Positions 8,643 to 63,654 of a DNA stretch of 63,654 nucleotides are shown here, one piece after another. The notes below the pieces were generated by a model. It searched no databases. It saw nothing but the letters and a program-made list of their open reading frames with translations, and was not told the origin of the DNA. Origin of the DNA: a bacterium (GTDB taxonomy: Bacteria > Desulfobacterota > Deferrisomatia > Deferrisomatales > Deferrisomataceae); NCBI GenBank assembly GCA_027021615.1, contig JALUTY010000015.1, forward strand, positions 1 to 63,654, given 5' to 3'. Positions within the stretch are counted from its first letter, which is position 1; each line of letters opens with the position of its first letter. Made by a program: the position numbers and the translations under genes.

Positions 8643-8825
8643 TTAGCCCGCATGATTCATGAGGCCTTCTGCTGCAACCGCCGATTGCACGCCATCTCGG
8701 GGCGTGCTCGCGCCTCGGGGCTCGACGTACCGTCCCGTACGCCTGCGCCCCTCGTTGCTGCGCTTGCCCCGATCTGACGCACACTCGACGGTTTCGCGAC
8801 GGACGCTCATGGATCATGCGGGTTA
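8643..8825. repeat. Repeat A1: 183-bp long palindromic element
   Basis: Copy 1 of family A. The terminal arms are TAGCCCGCATGATTCATGA and, as complement at the right end, TAACCCGCATGATCCATGA. The interior is nearly identical to the copies at 45339-45520 and 63471-63652 and folds on itself, with a central CGTAC...GTACG stem. At one arm position both the left and right bases differ from copies 3 and 4 in a pair-preserving way (T/A to G/C). Confidence 0.85.
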
Positions 8826-8904
8826 GGGGGCAGCTAAAATCGGAACGGAGGGCCAGACGTCGCGGTGGGGCTGGAGGCGGAGGGGTTGCAGCGTCCGGGT
8901 TCGT

Positions 8905-22272: not shown

Positions 22273-23460
22273 ATGAACAAGGTAATGTCCGTGGTAACGC
22301 TCCTTGGGCTGGCAACGTTCGCCGTGCCCCGCGCCCAAGCCATCCCGGCTTTCAGCCGAACCTACAAGACCGAGTGCGCCACCTGCCACACGGTGATCCC
22401 CCACCGCAACGCCTTTGGGGAGGCGTTCCGGCGCAACGGCTACGTGTGGCCCGGGGCCGAGGGCGCTCGCAAGCCTGCCAAGGGGATGGAAGCCCTGTGG
22501 AGATCCGGGGCTTTGGAGGCCGTGCCCGTCTCCCTGCTCGGCATGCACGACGCCCGGTACGACCGCGAGGCCGAAAGCGGGGACAAGCTGGACCTGGAGC
22601 CACACGAGTTCGAGCTCATGGCAGGGGGAAGCCTTCGTGACCGGGTGACTTTCTGGATGGAGTACCGGCTGGAAGAGGTGGAGGACAACGAACGCGAGGG
22701 CACCGAGATGGAGGAGGCGTTCGTGATGTTCCGCCGCGTGCTCGGCACCCCGCTCAACGTGAAGTACGGCCTCTTCCGGCCCGACCTCACCCTGTGGAAG
22801 CACAACGACCGCCTAACCGCGGCCACCTGGGCGCCCTTGGACAAGATCCACGGCGAAAAGCTCAAGAGCGCCAGGGACGGGGTCGAGATGAACGGCGTGT
22901 TCGGCGGCCGACTGTTCGCCGCCGTCGGCGCGGTGGACCGGGAGGAACAGGACGGGTACGAGTTCTACGGCCACGTGGCCTACAAGTTCGGCGGCACCGA
23001 CCTCGACGGCAACGAACCCGAGATCGACCTGGAGGCGGATCCGAGCGTCTGGGACGACCTGGCCGTAACCCTCAGCGCCTACGGATACGTCGGCCGGCGC
23101 GGGGACACCGACACCCAGAGCTGGTCCCGGGTCGGGGCCGAGGCCGAGGTGGTGTACAAGGGGGTCACCCTGCTGGTGTCCGGGCTCAACGGCAGGGACG
23201 AGGTCGCCGGCGCGGACGACGCCGACACCTGGGTGTACGCGGCCGAGGCCCAGTACGTGTGCCGGGGCAAATACTTCATCCTGGCCCGGTACGAGTACAA
23301 GGACGAAGAGGGAGACGGGAGCGGGGTGATCAATCGGTTCATCCCGGCCGTGGGATGGACACCGGTTCCCAGCGTCCGTCTGAGCCTGGAGCACCGCTGG
23401 GAGAAGGCCGCCCCCGAGGTGGACAACACGACCCTGATGCGGCTCCTGTACAGCTTCTGA
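22273..23460 (+). CDS. Monoheme c-type cytochrome fused to a predicted outer-membrane beta-barrel
   Basis: A 395-residue exported protein. The signal peptide (about 1-23, cleavage after AQA) is followed by a single haem motif CATCH in TECATCHTVIPHRNAFGEAF (about 34-38). The remaining 350 residues alternate in beta-strand style with aromatic girdles (FWMEYRLEEVED, YEFYGHVAYKF, YFILARYEYK) and end LLYSF, the terminal phenylalanine of outer-membrane barrels. It probably sits in the outer membrane as a porin with a haem plug or collar and may take part in extracellular electron transfer, which is inference. The ribosome site AGGAGG is strong. Confidence 0.8.
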   Translation: MNKVMSVVTLLGLATFAVPRAQAIPAFSRTYKTECATCHTVIPHRNAFGEAFRRNGYVWPGAEGARKPAKGMEALWRSGALEAVPVSLLGMHDARYDREAESGDKLDLEPHEFELMAGGSLRDRVTFWMEYRLEEVEDNEREGTEMEEAFVMFRRVLGTPLNVKYGLFRPDLTLWKHNDRLTAATWAPLDKIHGEKLKSARDGVEMNGVFGGRLFAAVGAVDREEQDGYEFYGHVAYKFGGTDLDGNEPEIDLEADPSVWDDLAVTLSAYGYVGRRGDTDTQSWSRVGAEAEVVYKGVTLLVSGLNGRDEVAGADDADTWVYAAEAQYVCRGKYFILARYEYKDEEGDGSGVINRFIPAVGWTPVPSVRLSLEHRWEKAAPEVDNTTLMRLLYSF

Positions 23461-23681
23461 TACCAAGTCGCATTCGAAGCCAGCGATTTGGGGGCCGTTG
23501 GCCCGGAGCGCTACGGCCGAGCCGTTCAAGCCGCTCGGCGCAGGGGAGCGCCCGCGGCGCGTGGTCTCACGCGCCGCAGCAGACCGAGCCGTAGCGGCTT
23601 CGGCGAGGCCGTCTTTTCCGGCGGAGGACCGACGGCCCTCAAATCGCCCCTCTATGAGCTCACCTGGATCGCAAATTGGTA
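23461..23681. repeat. Repeat B1: 221-bp palindromic element
   Basis: It starts directly after the TGA of the porin-cytochrome. Terminal arms are TACCAAGTCGC and GCAAATTGGTA. Inner arms are GATTTGGGGGCCGTTGG and the near-complement CCGACGGCCCTCAAATC. The core hairpin is GCGGCGCGTG-GTCT-CACGCGCCGC. It is highly similar over its full length to 41198-41415. Confidence 0.85.
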
Positions 23682-23698
23682 TGAGTGGGAGGCTCCCC

Positions 23699-33460: not shown

Positions 33461-33482
33461 GTCCAGGGCCGGGGACCACGCC

Positions 33483-33673
33483 TAGCCCGCACTATTCATG
33501 AAGTCATGAAGCCTTCTACTACAACCGCCGATTGCACGCCATCTCGGGGCGTGCTCGCGCCTCGGGGCTCGACGTACCGTCCAGCACGCCTGCACCCCTC
33601 GTGCGCTCGTGCTTGCCCCGATCTGACGCACACTCGGCGGTTTCGCGACGGACGCCCATGAACCGTACGGGTT
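33483..33673. repeat. Repeat A2: family A palindrome with degenerate right end
   Basis: The left arm TAGCCCGCACTATTCATGA is followed by a small TCATGAA duplication. The interior matches A1, A3 and A4 apart from scattered changes and a short insertion near the right centre. The right arm is diverged (CCCATGAACCGTACGGGTTT). It abuts the ppiC stop codon at 33677. Confidence 0.8.
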
Positions 33674-33676
33674 TCT

Positions 33677-39900: not shown

Positions 39901-41196
39901 ATGAGCCAGATCGTGTCGTCCCAGTCCCAGCAGTTCGACAAAGCCCTCGAGCTGGGCCGCCCGCCCAACGTCCGCAGGCTGTTCCCCCACTCCCGGGCCC
40001 TGATCGTGAGCGGAAAGGTGATCGACCGGGCCATGCTGGCCAAGGGCGGGGCCATGGCCATCGCGGCCAACGCCCGGAACCGATTCGTGATCCACGGGGT
40101 GCTCCGGGCGGCCCAGAGGGCCAACGCCGCGGTGATCATCGAGATCGCGAAGAGCGAAGGAGGTGCGGACGCCTACTGCGCTGTGAACTACTGGAACATG
40201 GCCACCTACGTGGACCAGGCGGCCAACGAGCTGGGGCTCACCGTCCCGGTGGCGGTCCACGCCGACCACTACACCCTCAAGGAGCCTCGAGACATCGAGG
40301 CGGCCCGCACCCAGATTCCCAGCATGTTCGATGCGGGCATCACATCGATCGCCATCGACGCATCCCATCTTCCCGACGACGAGAACCTGCTGGCGAACCT
40401 GGACCTGTACCGGTACGTGCCGGCCTGGGCGGGGCTTGAGACCGAGGTGGGCGAGATCAAGGGTGCGGCAGGTCTGTCCACTGTGGATGAGGCCCGCTTC
40501 CTGATCCAGGGGCTTAACGCGAACGGGGTGTTCCCCGACTGGATCGCCCTGAACAACGGCACCACCCACGGCATCCAGGCCTCGGACGCCGGCATCCAGG
40601 TGGAGCTCACCGCCGAGATCCACGAGGCCCTCGAGCCTTACGGCGTGTCCGGGGCCCAGCACGGAACCTCGGGGAACAGCTTCGACAGGCTGCGGCGCAT
40701 CGCGGCCGAGACCCGCACCACCAAGGCCAACGTGGCCACGGCCCTGCAGATGATCTCTTGGGGGGTGAAGGTGAACGAGTACGGCAACGCCATTTTGGAC
40801 GACCGGGGACGGTTTGTGCGTGAGCCCGGGGCCGGGGTCTCCGACGAGCTGTGGGCCGAGATGGTGGCCTACGCCGACGAGCGGGGCTGGAAGAAGGGCG
40901 ACTACAAGAAGCTCAACCTACCCTTCGAGAACAAGCTCTGGGCCCAGCCAGCCGAGATCCGCGAGCGCATGGTGCGGGGGGTGGAGGAGTTCGTGTACCA
41001 CCTGCTCACGCGCGTGTTCAACACGGCCGACACCGCACCCTTGGCCATCGAGGCGATCCTTCGGGCCGAGTCCCACGACCTGGGCCCCAAGGCGGAGCGT
41101 CTGGAGAACCCGGCCGAATGGACCGAAGAGAAGGTCCGCGAACGGGCCAAGGCCCTTCAGAAGGAGGAGGGCCCGGGGGGGGACTTCGACGACTGA
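39901..41196 (+). CDS. Class II fructose-bisphosphate aldolase
   Basis: A 431-residue zinc aldolase for glycolysis/gluconeogenesis. Zinc ligand histidines are visible in VHADHYT, NNGTTHGI and SGAQHGTSG. The barrel core and an extended C-terminal helical region (about 330-431) match the long class II subtype seen in deltaproteobacteria rather than the E. coli FbaA length of about 359. The ATG at 39901 has a GGAGGGG site. The stop codon is followed within 2 bp by repeat B2. Confidence 0.88.
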   Translation: MSQIVSSQSQQFDKALELGRPPNVRRLFPHSRALIVSGKVIDRAMLAKGGAMAIAANARNRFVIHGVLRAAQRANAAVIIEIAKSEGGADAYCAVNYWNMATYVDQAANELGLTVPVAVHADHYTLKEPRDIEAARTQIPSMFDAGITSIAIDASHLPDDENLLANLDLYRYVPAWAGLETEVGEIKGAAGLSTVDEARFLIQGLNANGVFPDWIALNNGTTHGIQASDAGIQVELTAEIHEALEPYGVSGAQHGTSGNSFDRLRRIAAETRTTKANVATALQMISWGVKVNEYGNAILDDRGRFVREPGAGVSDELWAEMVAYADERGWKKGDYKKLNLPFENKLWAQPAEIRERMVRGVEEFVYHLLTRVFNTADTAPLAIEAILRAESHDLGPKAERLENPAEWTEEKVRERAKALQKEEGPGGDFDD

Positions 41197-41197
41197 G

Positions 41198-41415
41198 ACC
41201 AAGTTGCGTTCGAAGCCAGCGATTTGGGGGCCGTTGGCCCGGAGCGTTACGGCCGGGCCGTTCCAGCCGCTCGGCGCAGGGGAGCGCCCGCGGCGCGTGC
41301 TCTCACGCGCCGCAGCGGACCGAGCCGTAGTGGCTTCGGCGCGGTCGTCTTTTCCGGCGGAGGACCAACGGCCCCCAAATCGCCCCTCTATGAGCTCATC
41401 TTGATCGCAAATTGG
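41198..41415. repeat. Repeat B2: 218-bp palindromic element
   Basis: It begins two bases after the aldolase stop and ends 49 bp before the TPR lipoprotein start. Compared with B1 (23461-23681) it differs at scattered positions. Several changes fall in stems, for example the TTGCG/CGCAA ends. The core hairpin is GCGGCGCGTG-CTCT-CACGCGCCGC. Confidence 0.85.
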
Positions 41416-41464
41416 CATGAGAGTGAGACTCTGTCCCACCCACACCCTGAGAAGGGGGAAATCC

Positions 41465-45111: not shown

Positions 45112-45331
45112 TTCCGTTTCGCAAAAAATATGCGGATTACGGCGGTGGGGCTGGGGGCTCCGACGAAGCGCGACGGCCGAGCAGCCCGGGCCGCCCGGCG
45201 CCAGGGGAGCGGCCGCGGCGCGTGCTCTCACGCGCCGCAGCGGACCGCGCCGAGGCGGCCCCTGCGAGGCCGTTCAGCGAAGGAGGGGCCCCCAGCCCCA
45301 CCCCCTGGGAACACCGCGAAATTTCCGAAAC
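45112..45331. repeat. Repeat C1: 220-bp palindromic element containing the B/C core
   Basis: Outer arms GTTTCG/CGAAAC, then perfect 15-bp arms GGTGGGGCTGGGGGC (45144-45158) and complement (45288-45302). The core hairpin is GCGGCGCGTG-CTCT-CACGCGCCGC (45216-45239), identical to B2. It ends 7 bp before repeat A3. Confidence 0.8.
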
Positions 45332-45338
45332 CCGACGC

Positions 45339-45520
45339 TAGCCCGCATTATTCATGAAGCCTTCTGCTGCAACCGCCGATTGCACACCATCTCGGGGCGT
45401 GCTCGCGCATCGGGGCTCGACGTACCGTCCAGTACGCCTGCGCCCCTCGGCGCTGCGCTTGCCCCGATCTGACGCACACTCGACGGTTTCGCGACGAACG
45501 CTCATGAATAATGCGGGCTA
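45339..45520. repeat. Repeat A3: 182-bp family A palindrome with perfect 19-bp ends
   Basis: Terminal inverted repeats TAGCCCGCATTATTCATGA are perfect over 19 bp. By eye it differs from A4 (63471-63652) at three positions. Its last three bases (complement TAG) form the stop codon of the minus-strand gene at 45518-46279. Confidence 0.88.
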
Positions 45521-46279
45521 GCCGGGGATCTCCGGGGACCACAGGAGCCGGTCGGCCCCCAGCCGGACCAGGTACCGGGCCGTGGGCTCGTCGTCCCGGC
45601 GAAGGAACAGGGCGTTGCCCCGGGACCACAGGGGGGTGGGCTCCTCCTCGTTGCGCAGGCGGGCCTCGGGGTGGTCGAGGCAGGGCCGGCCGCACCGCAC
45701 CGGGTCCTCGGTCCAGGGGCAGGCCAGGCTCACGGTCACCGGCACCCAGGGCGCGTGCACCCGCAGGGTCACCCCCTCGGGCAGGTCGGGCACCTGGATC
45801 CCGGCCGGCGTGAGGTCCAGCTCCACCCCCACGGCCCCGTGCTCCGAGAGCAAGGCCAGGCCCACGGGCCCGTCCCACAGGCTCGCCCGGAGTTCCTCCG
45901 CCCCGGACGCCGAGGCCGAGTCCAGCATCGCGGCCACCCGGGGCCCCCGGCGCTGGCGGGAGAGGAGCCGCCCGGCCACCCCCCGCAGCGGCAGGCCGGC
46001 CTCCCGGGCCCGAGCCCACAGGCCCCAGTCGTTGAAGGTCACCTCCGCCCCGGGCGAGGACTCCAGCGCGGCCACGAGCCACGCCCATGCGGCGTCGGCC
46101 GTGCCCTCCCGAACCGCCGGGGTCACGAGCTGGAGCCCAGCGCCCTGGGACCGGCACAGCCCGGCCGCCTCGTCCACGGCCCCCCGGGGAGGCAGCCGGT
46201 GAACGCAGAACTCGGCACCCAGGGCCAGCCCGTCGTAGCCCCAGAGCTCCTCGGCTCTGGGGAGCCGGTCGGTCCTCAG
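45518..46279 (-). CDS. U32 peptidase/UbiV-like protein in a molybdenum-cofactor operon
   Basis: About 253 residues. Segments LALGAEFCVHRLP, GLQLVTPAVREG, VTFNDWGLWARAREAG and GRLLSRQRRGPRV follow the pattern of U32-type (UbiU/UbiV-like) barrel proteins. Four or more cysteines (FCVH, GLC, ACPW, RCGRPC) could bind an iron-sulfur cluster. No ATG, GTG or TTG lies near the expected start. A CTG at 46279 overlaps the mobB stop as CTGA and is in frame; the next upstream ATG (46408) would overlap mobB by about 130 bp. The stop codon is contributed by repeat A3, so the C-terminus may be truncated. Confidence 0.6.
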   Translation of the reverse strand: MRTDRLPRAEELWGYDGLALGAEFCVHRLPPRGAVDEAAGLCRSQGAGLQLVTPAVREGTADAAWAWLVAALESSPGAEVTFNDWGLWARAREAGLPLRGVAGRLLSRQRRGPRVAAMLDSASASGAEELRASLWDGPVGLALLSEHGAVGVELDLTPAGIQVPDLPEGVTLRVHAPWVPVTVSLACPWTEDPVRCGRPCLDHPEARLRNEEEPTPLWSRGNALFLRRDDEPTARYLVRLGADRLLWSPEIPG

Positions 46280-46779
46280 GTACCGACGGACAACAGCCGT
46301 CGCTCCAAGAGGTCGGCCACGGCGCCGGCGTCCCCCAGGGGGAGCACCGGGCAGGGAGCCTCGAAATCGCCGAGATCGGTGACGACGCAGAGCACGTCCT
46401 CGGTCCATGGAACCTCCCGCTCGAGCCCCCGCCGCACCACCTCGATCCTCGGATACCCCCCCAACCCCTTGAACCCCTCGACCAGCACCAGATCGGTGCC
46501 CGGAGGGCACCACCTGGCCAAGGTGCCGGGCGAGACGTCCGGCGGCCGGTCCCGGAACACCACCACCTCGTCCGCGGTGACGAAGAAGGTGGCCACGGCC
46601 CCGGCCCGACGGTGACGCCACGTGTCCTTGCCGGGCCGATCCACCTCGACCCGGCCCCGGTGGTGCTTCACCGTGGCCACCCGCCGGCCCCGAGCCGTGA
46701 GCTCGCGCACCAGGGACTCGAGCAGGGTGGTCTTGCCGCTGCCCGATGGGCCGACCACGAGGCACACGGGTGGGGTCAC
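46276..46779 (-). CDS. mobB: MobB: molybdopterin-guanine dinucleotide biosynthesis GTPase
   Basis: A 167-residue P-loop protein with VVGPSGSGKTTLLESLV, VATVKHHRG and DLVLVEGFKGLGGYPRIEVVRR, the canonical MobB motifs. It helps deliver or modify molybdopterin for MGD-type enzymes. The GTG start overlaps the moeA stop in GTGA. Confidence 0.93.
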   Translation of the reverse strand: MTPPVCLVVGPSGSGKTTLLESLVRELTARGRRVATVKHHRGRVEVDRPGKDTWRHRRAGAVATFFVTADEVVVFRDRPPDVSPGTLARWCPPGTDLVLVEGFKGLGGYPRIEVVRRGLEREVPWTEDVLCVVTDLGDFEAPCPVLPLGDAGAVADLLERRLLSVGT

Positions 46780-57665: not shown

Positions 57666-58025
57666 CTGGAACGGATCCTCCTCGTGACTTCGGTCGGTGG
57701 TCAGGGCCTTCGGCCCGCTCGAAGGCTGGAAAGCTAGAAAGCTGGAAGGACGGTAGGCCAGAAAAACCTTCTTTCTCTCCTAGCGTTTCACCCAGTGTTC
57801 CGTTTCGCAAGAAAGCATGCGGATTGCGGCGGTGGGGCTGGGGGCTCCGACGGACCGCGCCGAGGCGGCCCCTGCGCGGCCGTTCGGCGAAGGAGGGCCC
57901 CCCAGCCCCACCGCCTGGAAAAACCGCGAAATTTCGAAACACGACCCGCGTTGGCCTCACCGCCTTTTGCAGACCCGAGGCATGGGGCCTGCTGGAGGGC
58001 CGGTCCGGCCCGGGGGGCGGGGGGA
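57666..58025. other. Intergenic region with repeat C2 and tracts
   Basis: No gene is seen. It contains GACTTCGGTCGGTGGTC (57684-57703), a GGCTGGAAAGCTAGAA tract (57719-57749), repeat C2 (57798-57950) and a half-D fragment GGGGCCTGCTGGAGGGCC near 57983. Confidence 0.5.
57798..57950. repeat. Repeat C2: shortened C-family palindrome lacking the core
   Basis: It is near-identical to both ends of C1 (45112-45331) but lacks about 80 bp in the middle, including the GCGGCGCGTG core hairpin. The outer GTTTCG/CGAAAC and GGTGGGGCTGGGGGC arms remain. Confidence 0.78.
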
Positions 58026-63434: not shown

Positions 63435-63470
63435 GGCACGGCTCCTGGCGAGGCTGGAAGGCTGGAAAGC

Positions 63471-63652
63471 TAGCCCGCATTATTCATGAAGCCTTCTGCT
63501 GCAACCGCCGATTGCACGCCATCTCGGGGCGTGCTCGCGCCTCGGGGCTCGACGTACCGTCCCGTACGCCTGCGCCCCTCGGCGCTGCGCTTGCCCCGAT
63601 CTGACGCACACTCGACGGTTTCGCGACGAACGCTCATGAATAATGCGGGCTA
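63471..63652. repeat. Repeat A4: 182-bp family A palindrome with perfect ends
   Basis: Ends TAGCCCGCATTATTCATGA are perfect. It adjoins a GGCTGGAA tract (63451-63472) and sits upstream of metF, so the metF promoter must lie in or beyond it. It runs to within 2 bp of the window edge. Confidence 0.88.
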
Positions 63653-63654
63653 GG

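Follow-up and report, generated by a model that had tools for sequence, protein, structure and literature searches.

The palindromic repeat described here is very probably a non-autonomous MITE of 176 bp, moved in trans by a transposase of the IS1380 family into YTAR tetranucleotides. It occurs four times in the window, a stretch of 63,654 nucleotides that forms one contig (C15) of the 4.25-Mb, 134-contig genome of the host (G000). A sequence-only reading had offered three identities for the repeat: a MITE, a BIME-like element, or a structured RNA. The first of these is well supported by terminal repeats, 4-bp duplications, an empty site, dispersed copies, and a matching IS1380 element. Our literature searches found no description of this element. 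An IS1380-type MITE is a known kind of thing; the unusual part is the conserved core at the apex of its hairpin.

Copies, boundaries, and insertion sites

The sequence-only reading placed four copies of an element of about 182 bp at 8643-8825, 33483-33673, 45339-45520, and 63471-63652, with shared inverted ends (TAGCCCGCAT...ATGCGGGCTA) and a self-complementary interior. All four are present at positions within 1-4 bases of these, and they share such ends and such an interior (Table 1). The repeat stands, but its length does not: the mobile unit runs from CCCGCAT to ATGCGGG over 176 bp, and the outermost TAG/CTA belong to the target-site duplication. The terminal repeats, CCCGCATTATTCATGA/TCATGAATAATGCGGG, are roughly 16 bp long. 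A tetramer outside CCCGC...GCGGG is repeated on both sides, and the element is thus 176 bp within a 4-bp YTAR duplication, mostly CTAG. Copy A2 is decayed: its right end is degenerate, and it has a small internal insertion (a GAAGTCAT/TCATGAAG repeat).

Table 1. Positions of the element copies, their target-site duplications, and the apex core in the window.
Feature	Position	Strand	Remarks
Left target-site duplication of A1, TTAG	8643..8646	+	sequence; TTAG/TTAG pair
A1, 176-bp MITE copy	8647..8822	+	CCCGCATGATTC...GATCATGCGGG
Right target-site duplication of A1, TTAG	8823..8826	+	
Left duplication of A2, CTAG	33482..33485	+	right counterpart TTTC (33672-33675) degenerate
A2, decayed MITE copy	33486..33671	+	small internal insertion; orthologous G002 interval without a copy
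Left target-site duplication of A3, CTAG	45338..45341	+	
A3, 176-bp MITE copy	45342..45517	+	same site occupied in G002
Right target-site duplication of A3, CTAG	45518..45521	+	
Left target-site duplication of A4, CTAG	63470..63473	+	
A4, 176-bp MITE copy	63474..63649	+	clean empty site in G002, with a single CTAG
Hairpin-apex core of A4, CGACGTAC-N6-GTACGCCT	63550..63571	+	recurs in many other genomes, within palindromic repeats
Right target-site duplication of A4, CTAG	63650..63653	+	contig ends 1 base beyond

The duplication was assessed in a flank alignment of 59 copies with recognisable ends. The flanking tetramers are identical on both sides in 38 of them: CTAG in 30, CTAA in 5, TTAA in 2, and TTAG in 1. 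The dominance of CTAG makes a permutation test necessary. When right-hand tetramers are permuted, a mean of 27.0 copies have identical pairs and none of 20,000 trials reaches 38; it is the less common CTAA, TTAA, and TTAG copies that account for the excess over chance.

The sequence-only reading proposed a search for empty sites in relatives and for further copies in the genome, and both exist. The window is syntenic with 1.77-1.87 Mb of G002, a complete genome of the same genus. Copy A3 is present there at the identical site with the identical duplication, and the site of A4 is empty: G002 reads ...GGCTGGAAAGCTAGGAGG..., with a single CTAG (...GGAAAG-CTAG-GAGG...) where the window has CTAG-element-CTAG-G. 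Copy A2 is absent from G002, where its flanks have diverged, and A1 has no alignable left flank in that genome. Among six further copies compared, one (L072) has a near-clean empty site with one CTAG; the others are uninformative or one-sided. A TTAA site on contig C77 was not counted as an empty site, because a deletion between short repeats would explain its flank equally well.

By sequence search, the host genome has no fewer than 40 full-length copies, with identities of 93-100%. A scan for the terminal pattern, tolerating up to 3 mismatches, gave 46 matches per strand (92 in total), against 0/0 for the reversed pattern. Host contigs break inside or at element copies, at window position 63654 and at the ends of C7, C25, C59, C85, C118, and C123, so that the true copy number exceeds the count. 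We considered whether these contig-end copies are collapsed longer elements and rejected the idea; they are ordinary copies at assembly breaks. Many copies also occur in the same-genus genomes G001 and G002, and none was found in the other searched genomes of the family or order, outside the genus. Approximate gene prediction from codon usage puts 25 of 26 host copies between genes, and the neighbouring genes show every orientation. A1 is flanked by a methylene-tetrahydrofolate reductase-type gene and one for tyrosyl-tRNA synthetase; A2 follows a PEP-utilising-enzyme/GAF gene and adjoins a SurA-type gene.

A 415-aa reading frame without a Pfam match (45518-46765) stops inside the A3 duplication, at 45518-45520, and the duplications CTAG, TTAG, and TTAA include stop codons. 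An IS630-family element of 1.1 kb, encoding a 343-aa transposase (NF033545), sits at a TA within a MITE terminal repeat in G002 (L182:17984-19089; G002:C1, about 2572984-2574089); host copies L015, L097, and L100 end at the same point and have similar flanking sequence. Other repeat families of the window (D2, D3, D5) lie at 23457-23695, 41193-41431, 45202-45325, and 57851-57935, are 88-93% identical, and include one that ends immediately before A3. A second abundant dispersed repeat (GGGGCAAGGGACCTGCCTCCGGCCGGGCACGAAGCCGGGCATGAGATTCGCC...) occurs at about 30 places in G002, with 87-96% identity among copies, and similar sequence is present in locus L085 of the host.

A candidate transposase

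At 176 bp, the element offers at most 58 codons, too few for a transposase. A complete insertion sequence in G002 (3805520-3807207) has ends CCCGGATGATTCATGA / CCCGGATAATTCACGA (the right end also given as TCGTGAATTATCCGGG) with CTAG on both sides, and encodes one 459-aa IS1380-family transposase, with scores of 410 bits against NF033539 transpos_IS1380 (cut-off 180 bits) and 522 bits against PF13701. The MITE end is identical to its left end at 14 of 16 positions and to its right end at 13 of 16, and the similarity stops after about 16 bp. Since the two are alike in their ends only, the MITE interior is of another origin, and the MITE is not a simple deletion of the G002 element. A variant on host contig C102 carries an IS-type end, CCCGGATCATTCATGA; one IS-type-ended copy there (L085:1143-1600) is split by an inverted-repeat element with ends ACCAAGTTGC.../...GCAACTTGGT. 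Two more IS1380 elements of the phylum (L350, L365) are flanked by TTAA duplications. TTAA is the target of piggyBac transposons.

From these sequence matches, the IS1380-family element of G002 is the likely source of the transposase. An IS1380-family DDE transposase would recognise the terminal repeats of about 16 bp (CCCGCATTATTCATGA) in trans and insert the element at YTAR tetranucleotides, with CTAG preferred and the 4 bases duplicated. The mover would belong to the IS1380 lineage of G002, and movement would probably be by cut-and-paste. Several observations count against this reading, besides the likeness of the two elements in their ends only. What the host has is a partial IS1380 gene (47% identity) at the end of a 3.5-kb contig (C23), adjoining an end CCCGGATTATTCACGA, in a draft assembly with 3.9% contamination; element copies far outnumber IS1380 genes there; and no matching ends were found near the IS1380 gene of G142 in the sequence examined.

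The MITE could instead be moved by a different YTAR-using family of DDE transposases, a reading that we consider unlikely. Two observations suit it: the identity of the ends, at 13-14 of 16, is inexact, and the draft host assembly, with its 134 contigs, yielded no complete IS1380 element. Against this, the sole element found in the genus with both matching ends and the duplication is an IS1380, in a survey of transposase families that was unsystematic.

The BIME-like identity implies an element of the BIME/REPIN kind, spread by a RAYT (a Y1 single-strand transposase). The repeat is palindromic, intergenic, and multi-copy, as such an element would be, and PF01797 (Y1) matches are present in G000, G001, and G002. 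Yet PF01797 has no match in G142, with 90 core copies and IS1380-type ends, nor in G105, with 42 copies. Furthermore, the 4-bp duplications and the empty site indicate a double-strand DDE mechanism, and the length of 176 bp and the ends are unlike REP units. On the target duplications and the two genomes lacking a Y1 match, we rejected a RAYT as the driver, and find the BIME-like identity scarcely credible. With its target duplications, an empty site, and a candidate for the transposase, the IS1380-type MITE is well anchored, which makes trans-mobilisation in a piggyBac-related family directly testable.

Paired changes in the terminal repeats

The element folds very stably: its MFE is -100.5 kcal/mol, compared with -63.9 +/- 3.8 for shuffles (z = -9.7), and 95.5% of cells pair in an alignment of 30 copies in common orientation. 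The sequence-only reading saw base changes on both arms that keep pairing and suggested selection for the fold or conversion between the arms. The paired changes are real, but they do not spread through the arm. Of the 14 two-sided cells in the 30 copies, 13 belong to three neighbouring pairs of the terminal repeats (columns 7/172, 8/171, and 9/170), as changes from T-A to G-C and from T-A to C-G at positions 7-9 of the repeats; the same pattern is seen in 56 copies. Outside these three pairs there is one single two-sided cell, and interior stem variation is one-sided or pair-breaking. On a tree based on the interior, the change from T-A to C-G at 7/170 fits one clade, and 8/169 changed repeatedly.

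This distribution bears on the third identity, a structured RNA or RNA-level regulatory element whose long hairpin is kept by selection. The stability of the fold and the excess of two-sided cells (14 vs 6.2 in shuffles) speak in its favor, although a palindromic MITE is already expected to be self-complementary over a long stretch. The number of pairs with a two-sided change is no higher than in shuffles (79/500), and in 19 of the 54 main-helix pairs the only departures are unpaired cells. The two-sided changes fall in the terminal repeats, with almost none in the interior stem, and so give no support to selection for an RNA fold. Rfam gave no match for the element at the gathering threshold or at E up to 1, and the copies are not uniformly oriented with respect to the genes beside them. 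We therefore hold a structured RNA to be highly unlikely. The two-sided changes are best read as the ends of a MITE being kept alike, either because the transposase recognises them jointly or because the arms of the quasi-palindrome copy each other.

The hairpin core and known systems

Of 297 genomes searched in the phylum, 55 contain the apex core, CGACGTAC-N(2-10)-GTACGCCT, and a single genome can hold as many as 90; a reversed-core control gave five matches in all. A further scan also found the core in contigs that, among the matches listed, carry the names Geobacter, Nitrospira, Desulfobacterales, Clostridia, Planctomycetota, and others; some of these matches look like chance (e.g. in actinobacterial coding sequence). 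At least 25 cross-arm pairs within 50 bases on each side were found for 48 of 73 testable matches, compared with 8 of 73 with shuffled flanks. Rfam has no entry for the shared core, and literature searches with its letters returned unrelated papers only.

The surroundings of the core vary. IS1380-type ends, YTAR, and a sub-terminal CTGCTGCGACC...TCGCGAC, as in the window element, are found in Gammaproteobacteria (L222), Nitrospira (L261), Binatota (L254), Deltaproteobacteria (L223, L228, L240), and G142. Elsewhere the ends bear no relation to these: Geobacter-type genomes have AGGCTGNTGAAAAA, G105 has ATTCCATTTCTAAATC, and other genomes have GTTTCCATCCAGAAATGG. Multi-copy core palindromes with GATGGCGTCGCAAAAA... 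ends also occur. In another genus of the phylum (G268), core palindromes form short tandem arrays (C2:91598-91923, L374, and C25:5372-5738), with a spacing of about 152 and 172 bases.

The shared core may reflect either common descent, the ends having been swapped, or convergence; since the matches were selected by the core pattern itself, the conclusions that can be drawn are limited. Tentatively, and with more doubt than confidence, we suggest that the apex core might be a transferable palindromic module, kept across phyla, mismatches included, as functional, and with its ends swapped between transposon families. Such a module could, for instance, be read by a host factor or aid hairpin-mediated copying. 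A hairpin core that palindromic repeats with different ends have in common over several phyla might mark out a widespread class of such repeats in bacteria.

Several known systems come close to the element. REP/BIME sequences are likewise palindromic, intergenic, and present in many copies; unlike them, the window element has target duplications and is not tied to Y1 transposases. The Chunjie MITE of Geobacter uraniireducens (235 bp, about 38 copies, according to the passage of PMC10969869 that cites it) is also a multi-copy MITE in a deltaproteobacterium, a likeness of description rather than of compared core sequence. MITEs that derive from insertion sequences or depend on them form a general class (reviewed in PMC10969869), and share with our element small size, lack of coding sequence, terminal inverted repeats, a target duplication, dispersed intergenic copies, and, presumably, movement in trans. 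The window element differs in being nearly all one quasi-palindrome, and in that its apex core recurs with other ends. Another counterpart is the IS1380 family (NF033539 / PF13701), the prokaryotic outgroup used for piggyBac transposons (PMC10813416). Although the window element has no transposase gene and the similarity is limited to about 16 bp of the ends, its terminal repeats are near-identical to those of the IS1380 element in the sister genome, and the two share the same 4-bp YTAR duplication.
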